This document shows positions 1 through 20,116 of a DNA stretch of 20,116 nucleotides, in pieces (position 1 is the first letter of the stretch; each line of letters starts with the position of its first letter). This DNA comes from a virus: positions 1 to 20,116 of the IMG/VR virus record IMGVR_UViG_3300010354_000901, one strand, 5' to 3'. Both the position numbers and the translations under genes were made by a program. The notes under the pieces are model-generated. The model was not told the DNA's origin. It made no database searches and saw nothing but the letters and a program-made list of their open reading frames with translations.

Positions 1-117
1 ACCGCCCGCCGCATCCTGGAGAACCTGGAGCACGATGACCTGATGGACGCCGACGACTATGATCGCCGCCGTGCCCTGCGGGACGGTTGGGGGACCGCAC
101 ACTGGGATGGGCGCTGA
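1..117 (+). CDS. C-terminal end of an unidentified GC-rich gene (partial)
   Basis: Reading frame 1 is open from the window edge to a TGA at 115-117 and gives 38 residues. The translation is rich in Asp, Arg and Glu and ends in GTAHWDGR. Codons are GC-rich (ACC, GCC, CGC, CTG), in keeping with the local composition. I do not recognise the family. The frame is preferred over the overlapping one that starts at 59 because the stop is followed directly by a promoter-like element (127-152) and a separate downstream start at 164. The true start lies outside the window, so length and function cannot be judged. Confidence 0.5.
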   Translation, partial: TARRILENLEHDDLMDADDYDRRRALRDGWGTAHWDGR

Positions 118-126
118 CCCCCCCGC

Positions 127-152
127 TACCGACTACAATTCTCTCAGTTCAC
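127..152 (+). promoter_or_regulatory. Promoter/leader element, copy 1
   Basis: The pattern TACC-N3-TA-N2-ATTC-N3-CAGTTCAC occurs here and again at 361-386, with every spacing identical (18 of 26 positions match). The segment TACAAT (134-139) resembles a sigma70 -10 box, which would put the transcript start at or near CAGTTCAC. The motif ends 11 nt before the ATG at 164. A -35 box is unclear: CTGACC at 114-119 is only 14 bp from the -10. Function is inferred from the repetition and the position. Confidence 0.5.
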
Positions 153-163
153 CACCCCCCATC

Positions 164-328
164 ATGCTGAACGGAACCATCGCCACCGCCTTTGACGACC
201 TGACCACCTTCCAACTGATGGAGTGGTTAGATGAGGGCAACCCCACCGCTAAGGAGCAGCGGGTCATCCTGAGGGAACTGGCATCCCGCCAGCAGCGCCT
301 GGAAGCAATCGCTGATCTGCTCTGGTGA
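164..328 (+). CDS. Small hypothetical protein, 54 aa
   Basis: This is a 54-residue acidic, probably helical protein containing the segments TTFQLMEWLDEGNP and QRVILRELASRQQRLEAIADLL. No membrane segment, cysteine pair or catalytic motif is visible, and I do not recognise the family. The start at 164 is chosen over an in-frame ATG at 59 for two reasons. The upstream 35 codons would overlap the end of the preceding gene and run through the promoter-like element at 127-152. The ATG at 164 also lies at the same distance (11 nt) from the CAGTTCAC motif as the next gene's ATG. There is no Shine-Dalgarno sequence. A GC-rich hairpin begins 7 nt after the stop. The gene appears to be a single transcription unit with its own promoter and hairpin. 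Confidence 0.55.
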   Translation: MLNGTIATAFDDLTTFQLMEWLDEGNPTAKEQRVILRELASRQQRLEAIADLLW

Positions 329-335
329 CCTCTAT

Positions 336-359
336 GGGGCGGGGTTGACCTCCCGCCCC
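336..359 (+). terminator. GC-rich hairpin after the 54-aa gene
   Basis: GGGGCGGG (336-343) pairs perfectly with CCCGCCCC (352-359) across an 8-nt loop. It starts 7 nt after the stop codon, but no T-run follows, so it may be a weak terminator or an mRNA 3'-end stabiliser. The loop contains TTGACC (345-350), which is also a good -35 box for the promoter at 368-373, so hairpin and promoter are interleaved. Confidence 0.5.
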
Positions 360-386
360 TTACCCTGTAGGATTCCACCAGTTCAC
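345..386 (+). promoter_or_regulatory. Sigma70-type promoter and leader element, copy 2
   Basis: TTGACC (345-350) and TAGGAT (368-373) are separated by exactly 17 bp, a canonical sigma70 layout. The region 361-386 repeats the pattern seen at 127-152 (TACC-N3-TA-N2-ATTC-N3-CAGTTCAC) with identical spacing. CAGTTCAC (379-386) ends 11 nt before the ATG at 398. The predicted transcript start falls in or beside CAGTTCAC, giving a leader of about 17 nt without a Shine-Dalgarno sequence. Confidence 0.55.
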
Positions 387-397
387 ACCCGAACCCG

Positions 398-784
398 ATG
401 CCTGCCACCTTCGAAACCCTGACCCACACTTGCGACCGCTGCGATGGTAAGGGTCGCCTTCCACACTACGCGCACGTTGCCAGCGGCGTTTGTTTCGCCT
501 GCCAGGGTTCTGGCACTCTGTCGCAACGTGTTCGGACTGATGGGACTGTGATGACCTCCTTGGAAGTGTTCAAACGTGATGGGCAGTTCGCTTACGCTTC
601 CCACCGCAAGACTATCCTCACTGACAACAAAGAATGGGGCAAATGTTTGCTCGCTTTAGAGTTAGATCATGAGGATGCGCGTCTCATGTGGCAGTTACTT
701 AAGGGTGAAAAAAACACACACCTAAGTGTTACTGAGATTCGCAGTGATGGTGGAGAAGATACAAAGATCTATCAGTCTTGGTAG
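398..784 (+). CDS. Double CxxCxGxG zinc-finger protein, 128 aa
   Basis: Two CxxCxGxG motifs lie near the N terminus: C12/C15 followed by G17 and G19, and C32/C35 followed by G37 and G39. This is the Zn-binding signature of DnaJ-type zinc fingers, so a structural zinc bound by four cysteines is likely. No J-domain HPD motif is present, so it is not a DnaJ chaperone. Stand-alone fingers of this type occur as small phage and bacterial proteins of unknown role. The remainder (about 50-128) has a mixed alpha/beta look and no recognised motif. G+C content falls along the gene, from clearly GC-rich at the 5' end to about 42-43% over the last 120 bases, so it lies in the transition toward the AT-rich part of the window. 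It has its own promoter element upstream and a hairpin 9 nt after the stop. Confidence 0.65.
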   Translation: MPATFETLTHTCDRCDGKGRLPHYAHVASGVCFACQGSGTLSQRVRTDGTVMTSLEVFKRDGQFAYASHRKTILTDNKEWGKCLLALELDHEDARLMWQLLKGEKNTHLSVTEIRSDGGEDTKIYQSW

Positions 785-1031
785 TTAGTTAGTGGGCGGC
801 AGTTAGGTATACTCTGCCGCCCCTATTCGTGCGTGTTTTGCAGTCCTTATGGGTCGGGGGGGCGCGCCGGGCGTGATCATGGGTTAAAATCGATGGGTCC
901 CAGTAACCTACAACGAGCCAGAATCGAGAAGTAAATATAAGACTCAAATAAAAAAATTTTTCCGGTCACACAAACATCAAAAAATAAAAATGCCTATATA
1001 AAAACGAAAAAAGAAATTAAACAATAATGAA
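785..1031. other. Gene-free segment holding the composition boundary
   Basis: No credible reading frame is present; the longest frame from the ATG at 849 ends after 12 codons. The segment holds the hairpin at 794-822, then a very GC-rich run (851-874) that contains the palindrome GGCGCGCC (861-868). From about 930 on the sequence is almost entirely A/T, including an A-run followed by a T-run (951-961). A TAAAAT (885-890) could be a -10 box, but I see no matching -35. The segment separates GC-rich genes from AT-rich phage genes. Confidence 0.6.
794..822 (+). terminator. GC-rich hairpin after the zinc-finger gene
   Basis: GGGCGGCAG (794-802) pairs perfectly with CTGCCGCCC (814-822) around an 11-nt loop. 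It begins 9 nt after the TAG at 782-784. Only a weak TTTT occurs further on (836-839), so it is either an imperfect intrinsic terminator or a 3'-end stabilising hairpin. Its placement matches that of the hairpin at 336-359. Confidence 0.55.
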
Positions 1032-1205
1032 ATGAAAAAAAATTCCGGAGAAAATATTCAATCACTACAAGTTGACCCAATTAATGGAGATTATTATATA
1101 ATCATTCCAGAGTGGATTGTAAATGAATTAGATTGGTACGAAGATAGTCAAATTAAACTTGTAACCGAAGGAAAAGAACTTGTACTTTCAGAAAAAAATG
1201 AGTGA
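1032..1205 (+). CDS. AbrB-like small protein, 57 aa
   Basis: This short gene reads from the ATG at 1032 to the TGA at 1203-1205. The core DPINGDYYIIIPEWIVNELD followed by WYEDSQIKL and a strand-like tail has the look of a swapped-hairpin SpoVT/AbrB-type domain: a short strand, a Pro, a helix ending in LxW, then two strands. Proteins with this 'EWIVNELDWYE' signature are, from memory, common small proteins in T4-like cyanophages. A DNA-binding role is inferred from the fold resemblance only. No clear Shine-Dalgarno sequence is visible. Its last 8 bases overlap the start of the next gene (ATGAGTGA), so the two are probably translationally coupled. Confidence 0.7.
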   Translation: MKKNSGENIQSLQVDPINGDYYIIIPEWIVNELDWYEDSQIKLVTEGKELVLSEKNE

Positions 1206-1389
1206 AAAAATTTATCACATATACTTGGACAACAAATGCTTATATCATTCATTAAATGAAGAGGAATTTAAATTAACTTGGAAAATGATCTCAGAGTTTC
1301 TTTCAATAACCGATGAAGAAAAACTAGAAGGTCTTTCATATGAGGAAGTTGCAATGTCTAAAGAAGTTATGCTGAATTCCTCCCATTGA
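1198..1389 (+). CDS. 'YHIY' family cyanophage mini-protein, 63 aa (copy 1)
   Basis: The start is set at MSEK (1198), which overlaps the previous stop as ATGAGTGA, rather than at an earlier in-frame ATG at 1180 inside the preceding gene. The N-terminal half, KIYHIYLDNKCLYHSLNEEE, followed by FKLTW, matches the layout of the 56-aa product at 2207 (YHIY, six to seven residues, then a basic/Tyr turn, LSEED). The two are divergent paralogues. The C-terminal half contains GLSYEEVA. Predicted structure is two strands followed by helices. Similar proteins are, from memory, frequent in T4-like cyanophages with no known function. The TGA stop lies inside the -35 box of the promoter at 1386-1414. Confidence 0.7.
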   Translation: MSEKIYHIYLDNKCLYHSLNEEEFKLTWKMISEFLSITDEEKLEGLSYEEVAMSKEVMLNSSH

Positions 1390-1414
1390 CAACTGACTAT
1401 ATACTTGGTATGAT
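1386..1414 (+). promoter_or_regulatory. Consensus sigma70 promoter upstream of the glycosyltransferase
   Basis: TTGACA (1386-1391), a 17-bp spacer and TATGAT (1409-1414) give a near-perfect host sigma70 promoter. The start would fall near 1421, about 17 nt before the ATG at 1438. The -35 box contains the stop codon of the upstream gene. In T4-like phages a strong host-type promoter usually means early transcription, so the gene downstream is probably expressed earlier than the wedge genes. Confidence 0.65.
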
Positions 1415-1437
1415 ACTGATGTAAAGTTTATTCAATT

Positions 1438-2202
1438 ATGGCTAAAGGATTTACTGTAAAAGCAAAATCGCCAATTTCTGGTTCCAGCACTAGCGAACCT
1501 GAATGGGATTATAACTTGGCAAAGGAGATGGTTAGAGGGAAGTCTGTAGTTTTTTGCTTACCCGGAAGAACTGTCTCATACAATTACTTAAAGAACTTTG
1601 TACAACTGTGCTTCGACTTGGTGCAGGCTGGCGCCAGCATCCAAATTTCGCAAGATTATTCATCAATGGTTAATTTTGCAAGATGTAAGTGCTTAGGTGC
1701 AAATGTTCTCAGAGGACCAGACCAAATTCCCTGGGACGGAAAACTGAATTATGATTGGCAACTATGGATTGATTCGGATATTATGTTTAATACCGATAAA
1801 TTCTGGCAATTGATTTTGATGGACAAAGATATCGCTGCAGGATGGTATTGCACCGAAGACGGGCAAACAACCTCAGTCGCCCATTGGTTAGAAGAAGATG
1901 ATTTCCGCAATAATGGCGGTGTGATGAATCACGAAACTTTGGAGAGTATTTCCAAGCGTCGTAAGCCATTCACAGTTGATTATACAGGATTTGGTTGGCT
2001 TCTCATTAAGAATGGAGTATTTGAACATCCAGAAATGAAGTATCCTTGGTTTGCTCCAAAGATGCAAGTTTTTGAATCTGGACAAGTACAAGATATGTGT
2101 GGAGAAGATGTGTCATTCTGTCTAGATGCAAAAGACGCTGGATTTGAAATTTGGTGTGACCCTCGTGTAAGAGTTGGTCACGAAAAGACAAGAGTTATTT
2201 GA
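1438..2202 (+). CDS. GT-A fold glycosyltransferase-like protein, 254 aa
   Basis: The protein has the outline of a family 2-like GT-A glycosyltransferase. It has an N-terminal strand that opens the nucleotide-binding fold (KSVVFCLPGRTVS, about 35-47). The metal-binding DxD appears as D112-S-D114 in WIDSDIMF. A GED at 222-224 lies in a position typical of the catalytic acidic region. A C-terminal WCDPRVRVGHEKT (239-251) includes the His common to this group. There is no signal peptide or membrane segment, so it should be cytosolic. The substrate is not readable from sequence; phage enzymes of this type can modify virion proteins, DNA or host surface sugars. A consensus sigma70 promoter sits just upstream, and the small gene at 2207 follows after 4 bp. 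Confidence 0.8.
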   Translation: MAKGFTVKAKSPISGSSTSEPEWDYNLAKEMVRGKSVVFCLPGRTVSYNYLKNFVQLCFDLVQAGASIQISQDYSSMVNFARCKCLGANVLRGPDQIPWDGKLNYDWQLWIDSDIMFNTDKFWQLILMDKDIAAGWYCTEDGQTTSVAHWLEEDDFRNNGGVMNHETLESISKRRKPFTVDYTGFGWLLIKNGVFEHPEMKYPWFAPKMQVFESGQVQDMCGEDVSFCLDAKDAGFEIWCDPRVRVGHEKTRVI

Positions 2203-2206
2203 ACTT

Positions 2207-2377
2207 ATGACAGTATCACACGAAAAATATCACATATACTGCAAAGGTCGCAGAATTTATTCCGATCTTTCAGAAGAGGATTATTTGAATGTGATGGAAG
2301 ATTTAGCGCAAGAGTATTATGAAAATGGAACTCCTGCACCTCATGAATTACAAACTGAAATTATACAAGGAGATTAA
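2207..2377 (+). CDS. 'YHIY' family cyanophage mini-protein, 56 aa (copy 2)
   Basis: The start is set at MTVSHEK (2207), 4 bp after the stop of the glycosyltransferase. An earlier in-frame ATG at 2174 lies inside that gene. The core EKYHIYCKGRRIYSDLSEED aligns with KIYHIYLDNKCLYHSLNEEE of the 63-aa protein at 1198, so this is a second member of the same small family. It is followed by a helix (YLNVMEDLAQEYYENG) and a short acidic tail. It has no cysteine pair, membrane segment or known catalytic motif. Function is unknown. The two copies flank the glycosyltransferase, which suggests duplication within the accessory block. Confidence 0.7.
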   Translation: MTVSHEKYHIYCKGRRIYSDLSEEDYLNVMEDLAQEYYENGTPAPHELQTEIIQGD

Positions 2378-2382
2378 GTCTT

Positions 2383-2538
2383 ATGGCAGTTAAAGCAAAA
2401 GGTGGATTGAACAAGCACAGTTCTTATGTACCAGGTCCTCCGAAGAAAACAAGACAAGGAGATGGTGATGGAACCAAATACGCTTCTACTTCTCGTAATA
2501 AAGCACGTAAAAAATATAGAGGACAAGGTAAAGGTTGA
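2383..2538 (+). CDS. Basic glycine-rich small protein, 51 aa
   Basis: This short gene reads from the ATG at 2383 to the TGA at 2536-2538. AAGGAG (2367-2372) lies 10 nt upstream as a Shine-Dalgarno sequence. The product is highly basic and low in hydrophobic residues: MAVKAKGGLNKHSSYVPGPP at the N terminus, and a Lys/Arg/Gly tail ending ARKKYRGQGKG. It is likely disordered and may bind nucleic acid, as many small basic peptides do. From memory, similar proteins occur in T4-like cyanophages. No function is known. Its stop overlaps the next start as TGATG, implying translational coupling to the 196-aa gene. Confidence 0.7.
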   Translation: MAVKAKGGLNKHSSYVPGPPKKTRQGDGDGTKYASTSRNKARKKYRGQGKG

Positions 2539-3128
2539 TGTATCACCTAGATGGTAATGATGAATGGAATAGTATTCATCCATCTGACCTCTGGGTTTAC
2601 AATAAACTTTTTTTAAGTCGGGTTTTGGGTTATACATGTGGTCCTTCAGGGACTACTGTTCCCAAATCCGACTTTTATATTGTTCGCCCATCATTCAATT
2701 TATTGGGTATGGGTCGATTAGCTCGTAAAGAATGGATAGAAAATCATACAGATCATATACATCCTGCAGAATTTTGGTGTGAAGTTTTTACAGGAGAACA
2801 TTTAAGTGTCGATTTTCATCATGAAGAGTCAGAATTAGTTGTTTTAGGGACTAGAGATAGTGATGATCCTTATTATAAGTGGAAAAAATGGGAAAAAATT
2901 GAAAAAAAAGTAGAATTTCCTGAAATTTTAAAAAATTTAAAGGGTAATTATGAATACATTAATTGTGAATTTATTGGTAATAAACTTATAGAAGTTCATT
3001 TCCGCCAAAATCCAGATTTTAGATACAATAATTCAGTAGCAATACCTGTCTGGGACAATGAAAAAATAGATAATATGACTTTTATTGAAGATATTGATTA
3101 TTGTAGAAAGGGTTTTTACGTCAGATAA
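2538..3128 (+). CDS. Conserved phage protein of unknown function, 196 aa
   Basis: The ATG at 2538 is chosen because it overlaps the stop of the preceding gene (TGATG). Recognisable stretches are HPSDLWVYNKLFLSRVLGYT (about 17-36), then VPKSDFYIVRPSFNLLGMGR (about 43-62), and FWCEVFTGEHLSVDFHHEE (about 80-98). The order 'IVRP...GMG...E.F.GEHLSVD' recalls phage proteins that I have seen described only as hypothetical. An ATP-grasp-like arrangement is conceivable, but no confident active site is visible. The second half is Lys/Glu-rich and less distinctive. There is no signal peptide or membrane segment. The gene stop lies inside the late promoter core (3124-3131) that precedes speD. Confidence 0.65.
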   Translation: MYHLDGNDEWNSIHPSDLWVYNKLFLSRVLGYTCGPSGTTVPKSDFYIVRPSFNLLGMGRLARKEWIENHTDHIHPAEFWCEVFTGEHLSVDFHHEESELVVLGTRDSDDPYYKWKKWEKIEKKVEFPEILKNLKGNYEYINCEFIGNKLIEVHFRQNPDFRYNNSVAIPVWDNEKIDNMTFIEDIDYCRKGFYVR

Positions 3129-3131
3129 ATA
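3124..3131 (+). promoter_or_regulatory. T4-like late promoter core upstream of speD
   Basis: GATAAATA matches the NATAAATA core of T4-like late promoters and includes the stop codon of the upstream gene. It ends 35 nt before the speD ATG at 3167. The surroundings are AT-rich, so chance occurrence is possible. Position in a gene junction, and the two further copies at 3815 and 18486 that also sit in gene junctions, support it. Confidence 0.45.
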
Positions 3132-3166
3132 TTTTTTTAAAATATTTTAAATTGGATAAATTTTCA

Positions 3167-3493
3167 ATGGGCAAACACCTTCTATTAGAGGTGTATGATG
3201 TAAACTTTAATCTCCTAAACGATAGTGTTGCCCTTCAAGCAGTGATGGAAAATGGAATTCATCGCGCAAAAATGACAATTTTAAATGTATATCAACACTG
3301 CTTTATTCCTCAAGGATGTACAATAGTAATCACTCTTGCTGAAAGTCATGTGTCTTGCCATACATGGCCTGAAAATGGATGTATTGCCGTCGATGTATAT
3401 ACTTGTGGTGAAGGAAATCCACGCTTAATCGCAATTGAAATTTTAAAATATTTAAATTCAGATAATTATAGTATTAGAGAATTATATCGTTAA
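3167..3493 (+). CDS. speD: S-adenosylmethionine decarboxylase proenzyme, 108 aa
   Basis: SpeD makes decarboxylated S-adenosylmethionine, the aminopropyl donor for spermidine synthesis, in the cytosol. This is the short bacterial/archaeal class that cleaves itself to form a pyruvoyl group. The core LAESHVSCHTWPENG and AVDVYTCGEG are clear. The cleavage site is E59-S60, with His65 and Cys80 as the other catalytic residues. These match Ser63, His68 and Cys83 of the Thermotoga enzyme with a constant offset of three. Length is a little short of cellular enzymes (about 120-130 aa) but typical for phage copies. The ATG at 3167 is preferred to a TTG at 3152. SpeD is a known auxiliary metabolic gene in cyanophages. 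All expected active-site residues are present, so it is probably functional. Confidence 0.9.
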   Translation: MGKHLLLEVYDVNFNLLNDSVALQAVMENGIHRAKMTILNVYQHCFIPQGCTIVITLAESHVSCHTWPENGCIAVDVYTCGEGNPRLIAIEILKYLNSDNYSIRELYR

Positions 3494-3501
3494 ATAGGAA
3501 T

Positions 3502-3521
3502 AGGGAGATAGCAACCTCCTT
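3502..3521 (+). other. Small stem with an anti-Shine-Dalgarno-like arm
   Basis: AGGGAG (3502-3507) can pair with CTCCTT (3516-3521) with one G-U pair around an 8-nt loop. The arm CTCCT (3516-3520) is also complementary to the AGGAG ribosome binding site at 3552-3556, so the leader has two competing pairings. This is a reading of the sequence only; stability was not calculated. Confidence 0.35.
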
Positions 3522-3531
3522 TCAAAAAAAG

Positions 3532-3555
3532 TTCTGTTTTGCACTCAAAACAGGA
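3532..3555 (+). promoter_or_regulatory. Hairpin that overlaps the ribosome binding site of the 83-aa gene
   Basis: CTGTTTTG (3534-3541) pairs perfectly with CAAAACAG (3546-3553) around the loop CACT. It can extend by a T-G and a T-A pair to 3532-3555. The 3' arm contains most of the Shine-Dalgarno AGGAG (3552-3556), which lies 5 nt before the ATG at 3562. The hairpin could hide the ribosome binding site, act as an mRNA end stabiliser after processing, or serve as a protein-binding translational operator as known for some T4 mRNAs. No T-run follows it, so a terminator is less likely. Confidence 0.5.
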
Positions 3556-3561
3556 GCTAAA

Positions 3562-3813
3562 ATGTCCAATTTACCGGTAGATAGAAATCAATCTTACATG
3601 TATCAAATGTGGGGTACTAAATCATTAGTAACTGATTATACTAGTTTAAAATCTGAAAATGTAACACTTCAGGAAATTATGCATGATGATATTGCAAAAA
3701 ATCATCATTATCTGAAAGAACAGTCAAAACTACATCAAAAAATTAGAAACCAAGATGATTATGATGATTGGGAGTATGGAACCGAACCCAATTATGGAGT
3801 TTCTTGGAAATAA
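3562..3813 (+). CDS. Hypothetical protein with a helical, coiled-coil-like centre, 83 aa
   Basis: The ATG at 3562 has a good Shine-Dalgarno (AGGAG, 5 nt spacing). The N terminus has MYQMWGTKSLVTDY. The middle (about 27-64) is predicted helical with Leu/Ile spacing, as in LKSENVTLQEIMHDDIAKNH, followed by YLKEQSKLHQKI, which looks like a short coiled coil. The tail is acidic and aromatic (DDYDDWEYGTEPNYG). It is a soluble small protein with no catalytic motif. It lies directly before the late promoter of gene 25, so it could be a structural accessory or chaperone. That is inference from position; I do not recognise a characterised homologue. Confidence 0.7.
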   Translation: MSNLPVDRNQSYMYQMWGTKSLVTDYTSLKSENVTLQEIMHDDIAKNHHYLKEQSKLHQKIRNQDDYDDWEYGTEPNYGVSWK

Positions 3814-3814
3814 T

Positions 3815-3822
3815 CATAAATA
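3815..3822 (+). promoter_or_regulatory. T4-like late promoter core upstream of gene 25
   Basis: CATAAATA fits the NATAAATA core reported for T4-like cyanophage late promoters. It lies just after the stop of the 83-aa gene and 24 nt before the ATG of gene 25, as expected for the first gene of the wedge operon. Confidence 0.6.
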
Positions 3823-3846
3823 ACTGAAGAAAAAAATCTTGTCCAA

Positions 3847-4257
3847 ATGGCGATTAATCCAATTACAAGGATATCCAGATCATTTAAAGATATTAGTTTA
3901 TCTTTTGAACCGCATCCAGTAACTAAGGATTTATCTATTCTAAAGAATGAAAGAGCTATTATAAGATCTGTTCGAAATATTGTAGAAACAATACCAACCG
4001 AAAGATTTTTTAATCCAGATTTTGGTTCAGATGTAAGATCAAGTTTATTTGGAATTGTTGATTTTGCAACAGTTTCAATTATAGAAGATCAAATTAAAAC
4101 TTGTATTGATCTTTACGAACCAAGAGTAGAAAATGTGAAAGTAATAGTAAATCCAGAAATAGATGATAATGCTTTAGAAGTTACTGTCATTTTTGACATC
4201 ATTGGGCAAGATTTTCCAACACAAGAATTTACTTTCATCTTAGAGGCAACGAGATAA
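3847..4257 (+). CDS. gp25: Baseplate wedge protein gp25 (gpW/gp25 family), 136 aa
   Basis: In T4, gp25 is a small wedge protein near the tail tube and sheath. Its fold resembles that of sheath-initiator and T6SS TssE proteins. The family signature is visible as a mid-protein IVETIPTERFFNPDFGSDVR (about 44-63) followed by the conserved LYEPRVENVKV (about 94-104), which contains the EPR turn. A final beta-rich stretch follows. Length matches T4 gp25 (132 aa) closely. A late promoter core lies 24 nt upstream. The next gene, gp6, begins 1 bp after the stop, so translation is probably coupled. This gene order is standard in T4-like cyanophages. Identification is firm. Confidence 0.93.
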   Translation: MAINPITRISRSFKDISLSFEPHPVTKDLSILKNERAIIRSVRNIVETIPTERFFNPDFGSDVRSSLFGIVDFATVSIIEDQIKTCIDLYEPRVENVKVIVNPEIDDNALEVTVIFDIIGQDFPTQEFTFILEATR

Positions 4258-4258
4258 A

Positions 4259-6157
4259 ATGCCTTTCACCAATTACGCTAATTTAGATTTCGACCAAATA
4301 AAAACTTCAATTAAAGATTATATTAGATCAAATTCTAATTTTACTGATTTTGATTTTGAAGGATCTAATTTATCTGTTTTAATTGATATTTTAGCATATA
4401 ACACTTATATTAATGCATTTAACTCTAACTTAGCTGTTAATGAAGTATTTTTAGATTCTGCTACAATTCGTGAGAATGTGGTATCTTTGGCAAGAAATAT
4501 TGGATATGTACCAAAATCTAGAAAATGTTCGACATCTGTTGTTTCTTTAAATGTAGAAACTAATAATGAAACTCCTACACTTTCATTGCAACCAGAATTA
4601 GTTTGTATAGGTTCAATAGATAATAGTTCATACATTTTTTCAATACCTGAAGAAATTACTAGAAATGTAGTAAATGGTGTTGCATCATTTGATAATATTA
4701 CGATATATCAAGGAAGATTATTAAAGATATCTTTTACCGTTAATAACTCTTTAGATCAAAGATTTATAATTCCAAATCCATATGTAGATACAAATACAAT
4801 TAGAGTTTATGTAAAAGGACCAAATGATATTGGATTAGGAAAAAAATATTCTTTAGTAGATAATATCATTAGTATAAATGGAGAATCTGAAATATTTTTA
4901 ATTCAGGAAGTAAAAGATGAAAAATATGAACTTTTATTTGGAGATGGTATTTTTGGCAAAAAACTTGAAAATAATTCAGTAATTACAATACATTATATTG
5001 TTACTGATGGTAAAGATGGAAATGGCGCATCTGATTTTTCTTTTGCGGGAACATTAAAAAATTCAAATGGTGCTTTAATTTCACCAACAAATGTATCGGT
5101 TAATACTAATCAATCTTCAAAAAATGGTTCAAATATTGAATCAATAGATTCTATTAAATATTTTGCACCAAGATTATATTCATCCCAATATAGGGCAGTT
5201 ACTTCTGAAGATTATGAGTCAATTATAAAGACTATAATATACCCAAATGCAGAAATAGTAAATGTAATAGGTGGAGAAGATTTAGAACCACCAGAATATG
5301 GATCAGTTACTATATCAATTAAACCAAAAGATGGTTTGTATATTTCGGATTTTGATAAGCAAAATGTATTATCCAAATTAAAAAAATATGCTATAACTGG
5401 AATTAATCAAAAAATAATAGATATTAAAGTTCTTTACATAGAATTAGATTCTTATGTTTATTACAATTCATTAAAATCTTCTGGACCTGAAACTTTAAAA
5501 ACTAAAATAGAAAATTCACTGATTACTTATGGAAATTCTTTGGATATAAACAAATTTGGTGGTAGATTTAAATATAGTAAATCACTTCAAATTATTGATA
5601 ATTCTGATGTTTCAATAACATCAAATATAACTAAAGTTATAATAAGAAGAAACTTAAATGTATTATTAAATCAATTTACTGAATATGAGTTATGTTATGG
5701 TAATAAATTTCATGTAAATTCATTGGGTGGTAATATAAAGTCTACAGGGTTTAAAATACCATCGGAAAGTGAATTTGTTTATTTTACAGATATTCCTAAT
5801 CAAGATAAGGTTACTGGAAATATAGCAGTTATAAAACTATCAGCAAACCCAGATTCTTTACCATCTACTATTATTAGTTCTGCAGGTACAGTAAATTATT
5901 CTACTGGTGAAATTAGATTAAATGCAATTAACATTGTTCAAACCGAATTGCCAAATAGTGTAATTGAAATACAAGCCTTTCCAGAGTCTAATGATGTGGT
6001 GGCACTTAAAGAACTTTATTTAAGTTTAGATATTTCAAAAAGTAAAATAAATATGATTAAAGATGTAATATCTTCTGGAGAAAATACTTCTGGTATTTTA
6101 TTCACTAGAGATTATTATCAATCAAGTTATTCTAATGGAAGTTTAATAAGAAAATAA
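4259..6157 (+). CDS. gp6: Baseplate wedge protein gp6 (baseplate J family), 632 aa
   Basis: T4 gp6 forms the ring that joins wedges round the baseplate hub and is part of the gp6-gp7 core. Here the N terminus has the strongly conserved block DILAYNTYINAFNSNLAVNE (about 42-61), then FLDSATIRENVVSLARNIGY (about 62-81). The middle has QYRAVTSEDYESIIKTIIYP (about 314-333), typical of baseplate J/gp6-like proteins, followed by EYGSVTISIKP. Length is close to T4 gp6 (660 aa). It lies 1 bp after gene 25, and the giant gene follows after another 1-bp gap, suggesting one tightly coupled operon. No truncation or frameshift is seen. Confidence 0.92.
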   Translation: MPFTNYANLDFDQIKTSIKDYIRSNSNFTDFDFEGSNLSVLIDILAYNTYINAFNSNLAVNEVFLDSATIRENVVSLARNIGYVPKSRKCSTSVVSLNVETNNETPTLSLQPELVCIGSIDNSSYIFSIPEEITRNVVNGVASFDNITIYQGRLLKISFTVNNSLDQRFIIPNPYVDTNTIRVYVKGPNDIGLGKKYSLVDNIISINGESEIFLIQEVKDEKYELLFGDGIFGKKLENNSVITIHYIVTDGKDGNGASDFSFAGTLKNSNGALISPTNVSVNTNQSSKNGSNIESIDSIKYFAPRLYSSQYRAVTSEDYESIIKTIIYPNAEIVNVIGGEDLEPPEYGSVTISIKPKDGLYISDFDKQNVLSKLKKYAITGINQKIIDIKVLYIELDSYVYYNSLKSSGPETLKTKIENSLITYGNSLDINKFGGRFKYSKSLQIIDNSDVSITSNITKVIIRRNLNVLLNQFTEYELCYGNKFHVNSLGGNIKSTGFKIPSESEFVYFTDIPNQDKVTGNIAVIKLSANPDSLPSTIISSAGTVNYSTGEIRLNAINIVQTELPNSVIEIQAFPESNDVVALKELYLSLDISKSKINMIKDVISSGENTSGILFTRDYYQSSYSNGSLIRK

Positions 6158-6158
6158 T

Positions 6159-9100
6159 ATGGTACATTCAAATTTTGAATCAAAAGTAAAAATTCAAGAA
6201 ATTATTAATAATCAAATTCCTGAATTTATTTTAGATGAAAATCCAAAATTTTCTGAATTTTTAAAACAGTACTATATTTCGCAGGAATATCAAGGTGGAA
6301 CGGTAGATATTGCAGAAAATATATCTGATTACATTAAACTAGACAATTTAACTCCAAGTGTAATTTCATATTCTCCATTTTTAACTCAGGGAATATCGGA
6401 ATATGATGATACAATATATGTAACTAGTACAAATGGATTTCCAAATTCATATGGATTGATTAAGATTGGTGATGAAATAATAACTTATACTGAAAGATTA
6501 GAAGACAGATTTATTGGATGCATTAGAGGTTTTAGTGGTATAGAATCTTATGAAAACAATTTAGTTTTTAGTTCATCACAAGCATCATCACATGTATCTA
6601 ATTCAAGTATTATCAATTTAAGTGTTTTATTCTTACAAAAATTTTATGAAAAATTAAAGAGAACATTTTTACCAGGATTAGAGAAAATTGATCTAATTGA
6701 GACTTTAAATGTAAATAATTTTATTAAAAATTCAAAATCATTCTATCAGGCAAAAGGAAGTAAAGAATCTTACAGAATTTTATTTAATGCTTTATATGGT
6801 ATTGAACCATCTGTAGTAGATCTTGAGTACTTTTTGTTTAAAACATCCGCATCAGTATATAAGAGAAGAAAAGAATTATTATTTGAAAATTTAACTCCAG
6901 ATAGAGATCCTTTATTATTATCTGGTCTCCAAATTACAAAAGAAACAAATTCGTCAGTATTTGGATCTGTATCTGAAGTTGAAATATTTACTAGAAATAA
7001 TAATATTTTTTACAAATTTTATATATTTTTGGGATATGATAATGCAAATGTGGAAAATAGCGGAGAATTTAAAATTACTCCATCATCAAAAGTTGTAGAA
7101 AGAATATTATCTACAGATCATAGTAATGTTCTAACTGTTGATTCTACTGTAGGATTTGAAAACTCCGGATCAATATATTGCAATGGATTAGAAATTTTTT
7201 ATACAGATAAAAGTGTTAACCAATTTTTTGGATGCTATACGAAAAATAGCACTTATATCAATGCAGATATAGAAAAAAAATCTACTGTTCATTCAAATGA
7301 CACTTATTATGGATATGAAAGTGGAGATAAAGATAAAAAAATATCTCTTAGACTTTTGGGAATAGTAAATGACATTAAAATAGAAAATGATTTAAATTAT
7401 GTATTTTCTGAAGGTGATAAAATTTATACTAAGTCATTAGGAAAATCAATTCAAAATCCACAATCAAATAAATCTAAGTATGAAATTTTTGCAAATAGTT
7501 TAATTTATAATACGTCTTCAAGATATGAATTAAGTGCATTTTTTGTAAATTCTAACTTAGCATTTGCACTTAATAAAATAGATAAATCATCTTTAAAAGT
7601 AGGTGATTATGTTGAATTTTTAGAAAGAAATACTGAAATAGTAGAAGATTCTTTAAGTAATGTTTTAGTTACGTCGATAGATGAATCTACGGGTCAAATT
7701 GAATTTGATTCAAATTTAAACACATTAAATTCTCTCAAAGAATATGACATTAGAAGAAAAGTTAGAACTTCTTCTAGTTCAATAGTTCCTTTAAAATATA
7801 GTAACATTACAAGTGATGTAACTAATTGCTATTTTGAAGATTTAGAAAACTTTTATATTGCATCAAATTCTTTACCTTCATACCAAATAACTAAAAATAT
7901 ATTTTCATATAATGCTTTATCACTAGTAAATTATGATACTACAGAGGAAAAATATAAATCTGTAAAATTTAATGAAATAGTATCATTTTTAAGTGGTGAT
8001 AGAGTATATTATTCTTATAGTAACTCTCCAATATCTGGTTTAAGTGAAGGTGAATATTATATAACAGTTTCTTCTGATAAAACTGAGATTAATTTATATT
8101 TGACAAAATCTTTTATTTCCATTGATAAATTCATTTATCTTGGATCAATTCCTAGTGGAACACACACATTTACTTTGTTATCACATAAAACAAAAGATAA
8201 CAATATACACCCACAAAAAATATTAAAGAAAATAGAATTAAATCCAGATCAATTCTATTCAGAAAAAGATCCAGTAGGAACTGAAACTATAGGAATATTG
8301 TCTAATGGTGTTGAAATTCATAGCTACAAATCAACAGACAAAATAAATTATGGTCCTTTAGAATCAGTATCAGTAATAAATTCTGGTGAAAATTATGATG
8401 TTATTAATCCACCAGGTTTAGAATTTTCTTATGGAACTGCCAAAATACAACCAGTTGTTCAAGGATCAATACAAAAAATATATGTAGATCCTCAAGAATT
8501 TAATATAGAAAAACCAATAAATTTAAAAATTTCTGGTGGAAATGGAAAAAATGCAGTATTATCCCCAGTAACTAAATTAAAAAATAGAGAAGTATTTTTT
8601 GATGCCAGAATACTGGAAGAAAATGGAGGATTGAGTATAACCTCCGAAACCATTACATTCTTAACACCACATAATTTTGTAAATGGTCAAAAAATAATCT
8701 ATGATGTTAATAATATTAATAATCCCAAAATAGGTATTGGTACTTTCCAAGGATCAAATAATGATACTAATAGATATTTGGGTAATAATTCTGTATTTTA
8801 TGCAGAAGTAATTAACGATAAGACTATAAAAATATATCAATCTTATAATGACTATTCTGCAGGAATAAACACTGTTGGTTTTACGACAGTAGGAAATTAT
8901 GGAATTCATAAATTTAAAACTGAATCTAAAAAAGTTTTAGATTCAATAAAAATTATCAATGGTGGTGAAGGATTTACAAATAGAAAATTAATTGTTAATC
9001 CATCTGGAATATCAACCTTCAATAATACCATCAATTTCCCAAATCACGGATTTTCTACAGGTGAATTAGTAATTTATGATTATCAAACTTCTACAATAAG

Positions 9101-12100
9101 TGGATTATCCACATCAAATCAATATTATGTTTTAAAAGTCAATGATGATTCTTTTAGAGTATGTAATGCAGGAATTGCTGGTACAGATAATACAAATTAC
9201 TTGAGAGGAAATTATGTAAAGTTTTCATCTACTGGTACAGGATATCAGTATTTTAATTATCCAAAAATAACAGTAGATGTTTCTTATATTTTATCTGATG
9301 GACAAACAATTAAAACAATTAATGCTACTCCAGTAGTTAGAGGATCAATAATTCAAACTTATCTATATGAAAAAGGATCAAATTATGGTTCCGATATAAT
9401 AAATTTAGAAAAAACTCCAGATGTAAAAATTTTACAAGGAAATTTTGCTCAATTAAATCCCGTAATTTCTAATGGAAAAATAGTAAATGTTTTCATTTCA
9501 TATTATGGATCTGATTATTATTCAACTCCAGATATAATTGTAGAAAGTAAAAGTGGAGTAGGTGCAATTTTAAGAGCTAAAATAGAGAATCAAAAACTAT
9601 CCTCTGTGGTTATTATTGATGGTGGATATGGATATGATCCAGATGATACTGCAATTAAAGTAGTATCATCTGGTAAAAATGCTGTATTTTTACCACAAAT
9701 AAGATCTCTTACACTGAACAATTGTTACAAATATGGTATACAATATCAAAATTATAGAGATCCATCGTATGAAATTTTTAGAAAAACTAAATCCAATAAT
9801 TTACAGTATACCGTATCTGGTTATTCAGATTTATTGAAAAATTTATTTAATGAAAATTCAAATACACATTCACCAATCATAGGATGGGCGTATGATGGAT
9901 TGCCAATCTATGGACCTTTTGGATACTCAGATCCAAGTGATACAAAATCTCAAATTAAATTAATTAAGTCTGGTTATTCTATTTCAACAAACGTAGAAAA
10001 TAGAGTTGATACTACAAAATTCCCTCTTGGTTATTTTGTTGACGATTATGAATTTACTAATTCAGGAGATTTAGATGAATATAATGGTCGTTTTTGTAAA
10101 ACCCCAGAATATCCAAATGGGGCATATGTTTACTTTGCTACTGCCGTTTTAAATCCAGAAAATAAGTATGTTGGATCATTCCCATACTTTATAGGAAAAA
10201 ATTATAGGTGTAAACTAATAAAAACAAATACTGACGCATCTTTCAATCAAGACTTTAATTTTTCAGAGTCTAATTTAATTAGAAACACTTTTCCATATAA
10301 ATCTGGAGAACTTAATGCATCTAATGACTTTATTCCAAATTATTTAAACCAAATTTCAGAAGTTAAAAGTATATCATCTGGAAAAATAGAAAAAGTTACA
10401 GTAATAGATGGCGGAGACAATTATAAAGTTGGCGATTTATTGTATTTTGATAATGAAAATACTTTTGGATACGGTTTAGATTGTAAAGTTGGATCAATAA
10501 AAGGTAAAAAAATCAATACTATTCAATCAAATATTAAAATATATGAAAATTCAAAATTCTACACATCTTCTAAAAATGAGTTTTATGTAAGATTTTATCC
10601 AAATTATGAAATTAAAAATAACTCTTATATCAATATATCTGGGTTAACTTCATCATTTGCAAATTTAAATGGAACATACAGATCTTTAGTAAATGAATTT
10701 AGTACCAAATTATTAGAAAATATTCCATATGGCAACACTGGAATAGTTACGGATATATATTTGCAAGATTTTCCGAACAGAGTTTCTATTGGAAGTTCTA
10801 TTAAAATTTATGGATCATCTTATAATCAATATTTCAAAGTATTGAATTATTTCAATGATTTGAATGTTTTAAGAGTAAAAAGAACTTCATCAGCTGGATT
10901 AAGTACTTCAAATTCTTTAGTAGAATTCTTACCAGATGTATTAACATTTAAAGGAAATGTCTTAGATCAAACTGACGCTGAAAATATAGTTAAATATTTT
11001 AATCCAACAAAAAGTATTGGTGTTGGTACTTTTTCAGGGTCATATACAAATAAATCTTTTTACATTGGAAAAAGTTTATTTGATGCTTCTATTCCAACTC
11101 AAAGTATATACTTACCTAGTCACACATTTAATACTGGTCAAAAAATAATTTTTAAGAGACCATCAGGTCTTAGTGGTATTCAAGTTGTAAAAAATCCTGG
11201 AGAATCGCCATTTTTCTTATTGGGTGGCGCAGAAACTGAAACTATTTTATATGCAATAAACAAATCTAAAGATTATATTGGAATAGCAACTTCTAGAGAA
11301 GCTTCTTTATCAACAAATGGATTATATTTTTCCTCTCAAATTAATGTAGGTACTGATTCTGAAGAATATTCATTTGAAACATCTTTTAATGAAATTAATT
11401 GCAATGTTACTAACATTACAAGTACTGTTTCAATATCTACGTATCATAATTTATCATTAGAAGATGGTGTCACACTCAATGTTATCCCATCAAAAAATGT
11501 TGGTATTGGTACAACTTTTGTTAATTTAAAATATATTGATAATATAAAATCAATATCGACAAATTTAATTAAATTTAATCCAAGTTCAGTTAGTTTGCAA
11601 AACAATAGATTAAATTTAATTAATCATAATTTAAACACTGGAGATAAGGTATATTATATTTCAACTTCAATAATTGGTGGATTAAGCACCGGATCTTACT
11701 ATACCTATAAAGTTGATTTAAATAATATAAGTCTTTGTGAAACTTATATAGATTCTATATCAAATCCACCAAAATTTGTTAAATTTACATCTGTTGGTAT
11801 AGGTACTCAAGAGTTAAATTTAATACAATCCAGAATTAACGTAACTAAAAACAATAATTTAGTTTTTAATTTATCGGATTCTTCTTTATCTGGATATAAT
11901 TTTAGAATCTATGCAGACAAAAAACTTACAAAAGAAATAGTTTCAGTTGCTTCGACAGACAAGTTTTCAATTATAGGAGTTGGAACTGTAGGTGTAAGTA
12001 CTAATGCATCTTTAACTTTACAATATTCTAATGATTATCCAGATGTTCTTTATTATACTCTTGAAAAAAACAATAACTTAGTAGACTTAAAGGATGAAAT

Positions 12101-15100
12101 ATTAAATAGTTCTGAAATAGTATTTAATGATAGCATTTATTCAGGATCCTACAATATTTTTAATGTTACAGATACTACATTTGATATTAATTTGAAAAAA
12201 ATTCCGGAGGATTCTTCATATAATTATTCAGAATGCTATGATTTGAATTATTCAACAACATCATTGAGTGCTTCTGGACCAGTAAATGAAATTAAAATTA
12301 TTAATTCTGGAAATGAATATAAAGATCTTCCAAATTATATGGGATCAAATTCAAAAAATGGATCAGGATTATATGCAATTCCAGAATCTAACCAAGTTGG
12401 TAAAATAAAAGAAATAGAAATAAAAAATACTGGTTTTGAGTATCCTAGTGACATTACTCTTTCACCAGCAATTAATGCATCAAAGATTGCCAGAATTAAT
12501 GAATCTAATACTATATTAAAAGTTAATGTTATTGATGGTGGTAAAAACTACCCTTCTGCACCAAATTTAATTGTAATTGATTCAGAAAGTCGTGAAAAAA
12601 TAGACAGAGGTTTCCTAAAAGCCAATATGTCTAGTGGTGGATTAGGAAATTCAAATATTCAAACAGTTTCTATTGAATCTCCAGTAAATGGTCTCCCATC
12701 AGTTCCAGTAACAATAAAATCTGTCAATAATTCAAATGGTATTTTAATTGATAGAATTGATTCATCGCAAGCTGGAATAATTACTTGCCTATTAAAAACA
12801 CCGATTTTAGGGTTTACTACAGATCCATTTGTTGTAGGGGATGAAGTATTCTTAGAAAATATTGAAAATGTTTCAAATACAGGTAGAGGATTTAATTCTG
12901 AAAACCATGGTTATGAATTTTTTAAAGTAATTAAATATACTTCAGCATCAAATCCAGGAAAAATTGAAATTCAAATACCAGAGTTATATGGAAATCCTGG
13001 AGTTGCTTTAACTTTCCAAATTAATACAAATGCAACAATAGTTAAAAAATCTAATTATCCAGTATTTAAAGTAGAACAAGATTACAGTACTTTCTTAATT
13101 GGGGAAAATATTTCAATTGTAACTAATAACAATGTACTAGAGACTGATTTAATTGTAGAAAAATCTAATAAAAACTATTTAAAATTATTTGGAAATTATG
13201 AATTAAAAGAAAACAATATTATAAAAGGATCTATTAGTGGGTATTTGGCAACTATTTCAGATTTAAAATACTCTGATGGATTTTTTACCATAGGGTCTGA
13301 AAATATTGTATCTATGGATTGGGAGGATGAAACTGGAAAACTTAGTAATGATTTACAATTCATACCGGATAATGATTATTACCAAAATCTTTCATATACG
13401 ATAAAAAGTGAGAAGACTTGGGATGAAATATCCCCGATTGTAAATTCTATGGTTCACCCTATAGGTACGAAGAATTTTGTAGATGTGCAAATTTCTTCGT
13501 CAACATCAGGTATAGTTTCTACTGGGATAGTTTCAAGTTCTAGTTTTGATTCAATTCAATCATTTATATCAAAATCTAGAGTTGATACTATTAAGAATTT
13601 GGATTTTGTTACAGATTATGATGTAAATTCAAATACTTCAAGAATTGTAAAATTTAAAAATTTAAAGTTAACTGATTATTTCGAATCCAGAACAAATAGA
13701 GTTCTTCAAGTAGATGATATAAGTAAAGAATTTTCTAGTACAGATGATAATGATCAAAGATTAGATAAAATTATTTTAGCGTTACCGAAAGATCAAACTT
13801 ATGGAAGATTTTTGATTCAAATAAAATCTTCTAATAAAAATTTATTAGAAGATAATATAAATCAAATACAATTTACTGAAATAATATCTTTAAAAGATAA
13901 TGATGATGCATATTTTATTGAAAAGAATACTGTATCAAATGTATATGGTGTGGGACCAGATTTAAATGTATTTGGACAAAAAATTGCGGACGTAACACCG
14001 ATAGTCGATGAAGTTAAAAATTATTATTTCATATTCACACCGGAAAATCCATATGACATAGATTATGAAATAAAAATTTTTAGTAGCAAATTTTCAACTT
14101 CATTAAAGTCAGATTCTACTTTAGATATTGGATCATCCTCATCTTTCAATAATGTAGAAACAGTTAGTTCAAATCAAAATAAAGATATATTATCAATAAA
14201 TTCTTCATCATACAGATCTTTCATATCTCAAATTCATATATTAAATAAGTCTACTCTTGAAATGAATTATGTTGAGGTTTACGGAATCTATGATGGGAAA
14301 AATATTTACTACAGTGATTATTACTTCGATGGTGTAAGGAATGATAATTTTAGTTATGGATTTATAGGAACTGTTGGAGTATCAACTTCAAATAATTTAA
14401 TCAAAATAAATTATTTTAATAATTTAAATAACGATGTTGTAGTTAGATCAAAAACTATATGTTTTAATGAATCGACTTCAGGTATAGGAACTTATAGATT
14501 CAAATCAACTAGACAAAATGATACCAGTGAAAGAACGGTAATATTAGATTCGGGTACAAAAACTGTTTCTTCTTCATCATCTATTTTCTCTTATGATCCA
14601 CTACTATTCTCTAGTGTAAAATCAATAGTTAAAGTTAGTATAGGTAGTACTATTTCTTTACACCAATTAATGACGATTCATGATGGAGTTAATTCTTTAA
14701 TCGTTGAATATCCATTACTTTCAATTGGAAATAATTCTGGAATAGGAACTTTTAATTCGTCACTAACTCAAAGTAATTTAAGTGTTTTATTTACTCCATT
14801 TGCAGAATATACTGGTTCTAATATTTCAATAAAATATTACAATGAGGTATTCTACTCATTCTTAGATGAAGTTAATACTCCTCTACCTTTATCAATAAGT
14901 CCATTATATGAAAATTTAAATATTGCAAAATATTTTGGATTAAATTCTAAAGAAAGAAATAGATTAAATTTTGATCTAAAGTATAAAGATATTTCAATTT
15001 TTGCTAAATCTTTTGATCCATACGATCAAAATGTATTAGATCCTAGTACTGGCATTTTTACAATTAATAATCACTTTTTCAGTACAGGTGAAAATTTAAT

Positions 15101-18485: not shown

Positions 18486-18493
18486 TATAAATA
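18486..18493 (+). promoter_or_regulatory. T4-like late promoter core upstream of gene 8
   Basis: A perfect TATAAATA begins on the base after the giant gene's TAA stop and ends 18 nt before the gene 8 ATG at 18512. This is the exact T4 late consensus, placed in the only real gap (26 bp) of the wedge operon, so gene 8 can be transcribed independently of the 12-kb gene before it. Confidence 0.65.
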
Positions 18494-18511
18494 ATAAAAA
18501 AACATCTTAAC

Positions 18512-20095: not shown

Positions 20096-20098
20096 AAA

Positions 20099-20116
20099 AT
20101 GGCACAAAAAACTAAT
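20099..20116 (+). CDS. Start of the next late gene (partial)
   Basis: An ATG at 20099, 3 bp after the gp8 stop, opens MAQKTN before the window ends. The tight spacing continues the operon pattern seen upstream. In T4 the next genes encode gp9 and gp10, and cyanophages have various fibre or wedge proteins here. Six residues cannot identify it. Confidence 0.5.

Follow-up and report, generated by a model that had tools for sequence, protein, structure and literature searches.

A sharp composition step in a T4-like cyanophage genome as the probable boundary between a GC-rich array of small gene cassettes and the late operon

The virus record IMGVR_UViG_3300010354_000901 of IMG/VR (20,116 bp), analysed here over its whole length and called the window, changes abruptly from GC-rich to AT-rich DNA close to its left end. 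The virus is a T4-like cyanophage (Kyanoviridae), as seen from the gp25-gp6-gp7 gene order and from its close cyanophage relatives. The composition step is a real feature of this cyanobacterial virus and very unlikely to be a chimera. It probably represents the boundary of two functional modules within one phage genome, a cassette array on the left and a late operon on the right, and the available evidence makes it likely that the GC-rich island is a hotspot of mobile gene cassettes abutting the late operon.

Results

The composition step and its surroundings in the window

In 60-bp bins, the GC content was 57-63% at 361-540, 52% at 541 and 47, 43 and 42% at 601-780, then 52 and 63% at 781-900 and 30 and 25% from 901. 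Since GC-rich sequence returned at 785-900 after the dip to 42-47%, the change is not a smooth slope. The fitted changepoint (Table 1) gave a log-likelihood gain of 66 as compared to a maximum of 8.3 in 300 shuffles, and an abrupt change was thus found where the initial annotation had put it. By blocks, GC amounted to 57% at 1-784, 57% at 785-921, 22% at 922-1031, 29% at 1032-1437 and 28% at 1438-20116. The course described earlier, 23-35% beyond about 930, held for the step itself, but 34-44% was regained at about 1400-2800 before the values settled near 25-30%. The segment 785-1031, which had been called gene-free, contains no credible gene; its sole ORF of at least 50 aa is a TTG-start frame on the minus strand (789-947).

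From 1032 onwards the genes are phrog_661, phrog_2626, phrog_1574, S-adenosylmethionine decarboxylase (SAMdc), gp25, gp6 and a gp7-like gene. The best isolate match of the window, the freshwater Synechococcus phage S-SRM01 from a Singapore reservoir, has annotated genes in the same order, with a DNA-binding-domain protein at the place of phrog_661. Homologues of phrog_661 were present in 81 of the 103 sequences searched. Close packing of the right-hand genes, also claimed at the outset, was borne out by the gp25-gp6-gp7-like junctions at 4257/4259 and 6157/6159. The stretch 6159-18485 is a single 4,108-aa ORF at the place where related cyanophages have the baseplate wedge initiator gene.

On the left-hand side, the window itself holds two complete cassettes only, and the ORF at 1-117, for which no PHROGs or Pfam match was found, probably is the preceding cassette. 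The element at 118-163 lacks a clear -35 box or hairpin (the fold of 95-130 was no better than that of its shuffles), and stretches resembling it occur in five other loci (L015, L016, L026, L035, L070). Gene 164-328 has a GC3 of 78%. The full element at 336-385 continues after its stem with a 17-bp spacer, a predicted -10 box TAGGAT (368-373) and the 5'UTR motif CAGTTCA (379-385); its hairpin folds with -19.9 kcal/mol (z -3.1), the element model matched at 337, and a promoter scan matched 345-373, weak alone with 2 matches in 1-1100 against 0.9 in shuffles. The separate promoters and hairpins that had been attributed to the left-hand genes can accordingly be recognised as predicted -10/UTR elements of their own, one of which is a full hairpin element (336-385); for understanding the step, this was the most important of the initial remarks.

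Gene 398-784 matched the Anti-TRAP and DnaJ zinc families, both below the Pfam cut-off. Relatives were found in S-CBS4 (41%) and in the locus L075, whereas the IMG/VR search gave one relative, L003, over residues 8-39 only. By thirds, GC along this gene falls from 61 over 51 to 42%, while the L075 relative is flat (48/47/46%) and the identity of the two by sixths is irregular. The gradient may reflect recombination within the gene or a mutational gradient.

Table 1. Features of the window around the composition step and to its right; promoter boxes and terminator-like hairpins are predictions
Feature	Position	Strand	Basis
ORF 3' end, 38 codons visible, start outside the window	1-117	+	open frame to TGA at 115-117
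Short-form intergenic element	118-163	+	-10-like TACAAT 134-139; 5'UTR motif CAGTTCA 145-151
Cassette gene, 54 aa, family 'cluster 3'	164-328	+	13 other members, 45-89% identity
Full composite element	336-385	+	stem 336-344, loop TTGACC 345-350 (-35 box), stem 351-359
Last cassette gene, 128 aa, N-terminal CxxCxGxG zinc-ribbon-like motif	398-784	+	Pfam sub-threshold matches
Hairpin closing the array (GGGCGGCAG...CTGCCGCCC)	790-825	+	-22.1 kcal/mol, z -4.6
GC-rich variable stretch containing GGCGCGCC (861-868)	826-883	+	sequence
Conserved boundary box TTAAAATCGATGGGTCCCAGTAACCTACAA	884-913	+	recurrence in relatives
Statistical composition changepoint	921		maximum-likelihood fit over bases 1-3000
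AT-rich leader upstream of the right-hand operon	922-1031	+	22% GC
phrog_661 homologue, 57 aa, first gene of the AT-rich side	1032-1205	+	E 1.7e-8
phrog_1574 glycosyltransferase-like gene, anchor for the locus search	1438-2202	+	E 1.1e-122
gp25, gp6 and giant gp7-like baseplate wedge genes (late structural module)	3847-18485	+	Pfam GPW_gp25; S-SRM01 synteny

Recurrence of the junction in relatives

Loci for comparison were the best 80 of 599 IMG/VR stretches matching phrog_1574, a biased sample, and further contigs were gathered by one exact 23-mer, which again makes for a biased sample. GC upstream exceeded GC just before the anchor by at least 5 points in 50 of 51 loci and by at least 10 points in 42 of 51, the 51 being those with at least 1,500 bp upstream (50 IMG/VR loci from the best 80 of 599, and S-SRM01), some of them close kin. 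The only one without a composition step was L077. Since the step is common to 50 of 51 relatives, it does not stem from a one-off event. The GC content upstream rose with the number of cassettes (rho 0.79; the 34 loci used extend upstream by 2,450 bp or more, and the window and S-SRM01 were left out).

Two explanations offered in the initial annotation were a chimeric assembly and a genome end. A fusion of two unrelated genomes near 785-930 during assembly would account for the extreme change inside about 60 bp, and a search of positions 1-1000 as DNA against phage records (a search of 1-785 had been recommended) gave no match in 50,697 of them. The presence of the same junction in related phages, which had been named as confirming a real step, speaks against a fusion: eight loci align to the window unbroken over 890-1040 (L036, L004, L075, L030, L012, L055, L053 and L020; L053 and L055 are identical over the junction). 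Furthermore, L075 carries a relative of the zinc-ribbon-like gene, the boundary and the right-hand module, all in order, gene 164-328 adjoins the same module in L017, L071 and L021, the isolate S-PM2 has the same layout, and S-SRM01 shows a weaker step. Chimeric assembly is, in the face of these data, exceedingly improbable. A genome end is not supported either, the site being internal in two long contigs, G001 (211 kb) and G002 (205 kb), each with 38% GC overall. Their 1-kb windows above 55% GC are confined to one interval (78.2-81.9 kb in G001; 141.7-146.1 kb in G002, in window orientation), which lies directly upstream of the phrog_661-phrog_1574-gp25-gp6-gp7 module.

Anatomy of the cassettes

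The islands of L071, L017, G002 and G010 consist of small same-strand ORFs, most of them with a short control element, and the median cassette protein is 63 aa long. In its fullest form the element runs from a stop codon over a GC-rich hairpin with TTGAC (the putative -35 box) in its loop, 17 nt, TAGAAT and a fixed 5'UTR to the ATG. The 3' arm of the hairpin sits within the 17-bp spacer, the -10 boxes are TAGAAT/TACAAT-like, and the 5'UTR comes in few fixed types (CAGTTCAAACGA, CAACCGCAACG, CCAGAGCAAACCGC). A shorter form comprises TACAAT/TATACT and UTR only, with spacers between genes down to about 33 nt. The promoters and terminators of these elements are predicted from sequence. A T run is missing from the hairpins, none of which was reported by the terminator scan; an Rfam search of the window and 6 relatives gave only one tRNA match each in L117 and L124 above gathering score.

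A perfect hairpin of at least 6 bp was found upstream of 102 of 223 non-redundant cassettes as compared to 19 in shuffles, and TTGAC upstream of 64 of the 223 (two of the 225 lay too close to the contig start to be counted). By spacer length, 6 of 30 short-spacer and 50 of 76 long-spacer cassettes had a hairpin. The stem arms covary: over 61 distinct arm pairs, among them some chance matches, the mean stem was 5.9 against 4.1 (sd 0.22) when arms were re-dealt, and none of 2000 re-dealings reached it. A profile built on 40 full elements gave 120 matches at E<=0.1 and 0 in locally shuffled sequence, in a set from which whole-contig duplicates had been left out and near-duplicate contigs had not. 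All 4 profile matches of G001 lie inside the island. G002 has no match at E<=0.1, its cassettes being mostly of the short TACAAT type.

A rule combining UTR motif, -10 box and ORF detected 271 cassettes, whereas shuffled sequence gave 8 and the opposite strand 3; these counts are descriptive, because the rule was drawn from the same sequences and strands were picked by its count, which biases the opposite-strand control low. Rule matches lay inside the island in 11 of 12 cases in G002 and 6 of 11 in G001, where the other 5 were outside; in the window the rule matched twice, each time left of 785.

In five loci (L071, L120, L133, L144, L145) the 3' end of one gene (..GTGCCCCTGGAGGGTTGA) is itself the left hairpin arm, with the stop apparently within TTGAC. 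Four different right arms occur with this GTGCCCCTGGAGGGTTGA arm, a pattern that strand exchange at the -35 box could produce.

The end of the array

The hairpin that closes the array is terminator-like, but has no T run and was not called by the terminator scan; positions 788-821 have counterparts, equally placed, in S-SRM01 and other loci. Within the boundary, the stretch that follows is the part that varies, and an exact 20-mer from around GGCGCGCC had no match in IMG/VR. A hairpin at GGCGCGCC was considered and rejected, the surrounding stretch folding no better than its shuffles (z +0.68).

The boundary box next to it has the core ATGGGTCCC..TAA.CTAYAAA. It was present in 33 of the 80 IMG/VR loci (best 80 of 599), never with two copies per locus, and some of the 47 loci without it may end short of the box upstream. 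G001 and G002 have one copy each, at the GC step, whereas G006 has none. The strict pattern was absent from all 23 isolate segments, S-PM2 having looser GGGTCCC copies only. Since the search pattern fixes GGGTCC and CTAYAA, the conservation found in the alignment of 30 distinct copies is that of the flanking TAAAA..C.AT only; an independent count found GGGTCCC in 28 of the 73 boundary regions, where shuffles gave 1.35. No conserved RNA fold was supported across the aligned copies and the box is therefore most simply a DNA site. As a guess, it could be a late promoter or operator.

Exchange of single genes

Clustering of 270 cassette proteins (one of the 271 cassettes, with an ORF above 1,200 nt, was left out; 59 contigs were kept as non-redundant) yielded 84 clusters, 45 of them single. 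Neighbours within the array change. In 14 adjacencies, family 0 (in G001 at 81400-81576) had 11 different kinds of gene on its left; family 3, to which gene 164-328 of the window belongs, had 6 different kinds on its right in 7 adjacencies, over 9 non-redundant contigs including the window. As a control, gp25 was directly followed by gp6 in 108 of the 109 sequences with both, the exception being S-CRM01 (443 nt apart). Judged by neighbour change against this control, the elements stand at the junctions of shuffled genes. Among 92 pairs of cassette genes of equal length and at least 85% identity, ungapped similarity reached no further than 40 nt upstream of the start in 84 pairs and no further than 40 nt past the stop in 87, counts that are overstated because ungapped extension also halts at small indels.

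The transfer of a GC-rich cassette, which had been the first explanation put forward for the step, holds in so far as the cassettes appear individually mobile; the one-off recent event it implied is at odds with the step in 50 of 51 loci.

Cassette order is nevertheless non-random. Where a cassette lay no further than 900 bp from phrog_661 (33 contigs), family 2 supplied the final one in 10 contigs, family 8 in 7 and family 0 in 6, the remaining 10 ending in other families. Families 2 and 8 were always the last detected cassette (17 of 17 placed contigs). They are small proteins, several with a TRLP motif. With the last families fixed in this way, exchange by homologous recombination fits better than insertion at the boundary end.

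These observations bear on an integron-like arrangement, in which the hairpins would be sites recognised by a recombinase through their structure and cassettes would be inserted at one end. In favour of such a system are cassettes of one ORF each in a common direction, palindromic sites whose stems covary, an end box that never occurs twice per locus (IMG/VR loci, best 80 of 599) and a GC content that increases towards the box end (rho -0.41 with distance, n=180). We nevertheless regard it as very improbable. Tyrosine integrase and resolvase were found in none of four records (G001, G002, S-PM2, S-SRM01), whereas an integrase was found in 14 of 14 control genomes; each rule cassette is preceded by a promoter-like box and UTR; a hairpin of at least 6 bp is missing before 121 of 223 cassettes; and the cassettes at the fixed end (families 2 and 8) are the most position-bound, opposite to what insertion there would produce.

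Base composition and origin of the cassettes

GC3 averaged 74% in cassette genes (180 of the 225 non-redundant ones, from contigs with three or more) and 9-13% in gp25, gp6 and gp7 of the window. Cassette GC was 63% within 600 bp of the boundary and 57% beyond 2.4 kb. A segment recently acquired from the host or from a GC-rich phage, its composition still unadapted, would show such a contrast in GC3, and the relative of the zinc-ribbon gene at 41% in S-CBS4, a phage of Synechococcus CB0101, points in the same direction; single genes may indeed be recent arrivals. For the island as a whole, this origin is quite unlikely: the step is at the same place in 50 of 51 relatives, 9 of 10 large cassette families have no Pfam match and 5 of 10 no PHROGs match at E<=0.01, and the 19-base element core, searched as an exact 19-mer, has one match, without element context, in one genome each of 84,980 prokaryote species, about the chance estimate. 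With the core only at chance level in prokaryote genomes, the cassettes look phage-borne. The one Pfam match among the families was DUF7249, and the 5 of 10 with a PHROGs match matched families of unassigned function (ten of the eleven largest were searched, family 8 being left out). Taken together, the cassettes probably circulate within cyanophages.

Alternatively, the GC content of the island could follow the host, its early genes being tuned to host codon usage. Strong islands were seen in Synechococcus phages only, and P-TIM68, a phage of Prochlorococcus MIT9515, has 24-33% GC from -12 to about -2.5 kb of gp6. However, phages of WH7803 range from 46% (S-SKS1) to 60% (S-PM2), and the remaining genome does not follow the host. 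Synechococcus CB0101 is a GC-rich host, yet its phages S-CREM1 and S-SZBM1 peak at 48-49% per kb; since these two have no strong island, host GC alone does not set the island. Over the 23 isolates, tracking of host GC found no support, and we consider it an unlikely explanation. The high GC of the cassettes may be kept by codon selection, a GC-rich source or a bias linked to recombination.

The island in isolates

Among the 23 isolates checked, a strong island was absent from most: 500-bp bins above 55% GC occurred in S-PM2, S-RIM32, S-T4 and DSL-LC03 only, Syn1 reached 52%, and the rest were weaker or flat. In S-SRM01 the upstream region has 31-51% GC in 300-bp bins. At the place of the island (88-93.5 kb) this phage carries a minus-strand HNH endonuclease gene.

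In S-PM2, the region 21.5-25.0 kb has 50-60% GC per 500 bp in a genome of 37%, and gp25 follows at 26.9 kb. An example of its elements is a GGGAGCAGG-TTGACG-CCTGCTCCC hairpin followed by a 17-nt spacer, TATACT and CAGTTCAAACGA (fold z -4.5). The cassette rule gave seven cassettes in this array, two of which are exactly annotated genes (24347-24547, 24617-24802), and pieces of 21.5-25.0 kb have DNA relatives in 134 phage records, S-PM2 records included. At 21830-24299, the RefSeq gene table omits cassette ORFs with clear elements, among them 21830-22027, 22097-22264, 23503-23718 and 23789-24058, and minus-strand or overlapping ORFs are annotated instead over part of this region.

A spontaneous deletion in S-PM2, the 'ORFanage' at 5,799-15,339, has been described in a report whose accessible text leaves the mechanism open (PMC4503421). 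A route via promoter-early-stem-loop-type (PeSL) elements was judged unlikely there, one promoter and two stem-loops having been identified (PMC4503421), and a 2-3-fold rise in coverage just downstream of the ORFanage was read as terminal redundancy (Puxty 2015, PMC4503421). If the rise past 15.3 kb overlaps the island at 21.5-25 kb, GC bias in sequencing would be another possible cause.

Discussion

Several known systems share features with the array, and we compare them here as far as the accessible parts of the cited accounts go. The PeSL elements of T4-type phages, for which Arbiol 2010 is said to be the defining paper, are the closest in kind. A PeSL combines an intergenic stem-loop with an early (host sigma-70) promoter, to which a part of our cassettes (hairpin in 102 of 223, TTGAC in 64) would correspond at the level of sequence; both kinds occur as many similar copies in a region of gene shuffling with small genes of unassigned function (PMC4503421). 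In contrast to PeSL, the fullest form here has the -35 box as its hairpin loop, the repeat includes the 5'UTR and the stem-loop is often missing; moreover, most copies are clustered upstream of the baseplate module in a single GC-rich island, about 20 GC points above the genome. Going by its sequence elements, the array would work in a manner comparable to the PeSL cassettes of T4-type phages.

The ORFanage of S-PM2 shares the side of the genome, upstream of gp25, with the array, and in both cases relatives of the ORFans are enriched in freshwater and their order is rarely kept (PMC4503421, PMC2984593). Unlike that segment (5,799-15,339), the dense GC-rich array lies at 21.5-25 kb, about 6 kb further on. 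The SAS/ESAS repeats of cluster K mycobacteriophages also immediately precede the starts of numerous small genes that are unrelated to one another, and some copies have an added inverted repeat; they differ in being 13 bp long and linked to translation starts, and the available part of the account describes neither a -35/-10 architecture nor a composition island (PMC3203893). In halovirus HF2, intergenic repeats of 58 and 29 bp were shown to carry promoters, but this virus is archaeal and the positions of its repeats are conserved within the genus instead of being shuffled (PMC8707807). The hyperplastic region between g15 and g18 of cyanomyoviruses likewise has variable gene content at a fixed place in the structural region; it is at another site and holds genes with predicted metabolic functions, not tiny ORFans, and no cassette elements are described in the accessible text (PMC2984593). 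An earlier account of an array such as the present one was not found in a literature search that covered few subscription papers.

The cassettes are probably early genes, judging by the promoter-like boxes. Host RNA polymerase carrying the main sigma factor would transcribe the genes one by one early in infection, and the hairpin, where present, would limit read-through from the preceding gene. The shared elements could serve as islands of homology at which genes are swapped singly between co-infecting phages via phage recombination; we infer this route because neighbours change and similarity ends near gene edges. The array would close at the hairpin and, in many relatives, at the single-copy box, after which the AT-rich late operon (phrog_661, phrog_1574, SAMdc, gp25, gp6, gp7) follows, presumably under late control.

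A more far-reaching version of this scheme would see the array as an exchange rack. Its hairpin-promoters would be control elements and, at the same time, junctions recognised by their structure or used for strand exchange, the single-copy box would fix one end, genes against the host would be traded singly in partly conserved order, and GC would be kept high by selection or by biased repair at the hotspot. As a whole, this combination is distinctly improbable.

In conclusion, the reading that we prefer, a boundary between a cassette array and the late operon, accounts for a step in GC that might otherwise have been set aside as chimeric. The gain and loss of the many small genes of unassigned function in T4-like cyanophages is a question that was raised for S-PM2 (PMC4503421). 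The array, present in S-PM2 and in relatives out of many metagenomes, is at a fixed site and can be found by sequence, and it is largely unannotated even in S-PM2. The cassette model predicts one start site per gene, early timing and exchange of one gene at a time. All in all, the island may help to explain gene swapping among cyanobacterial viruses.
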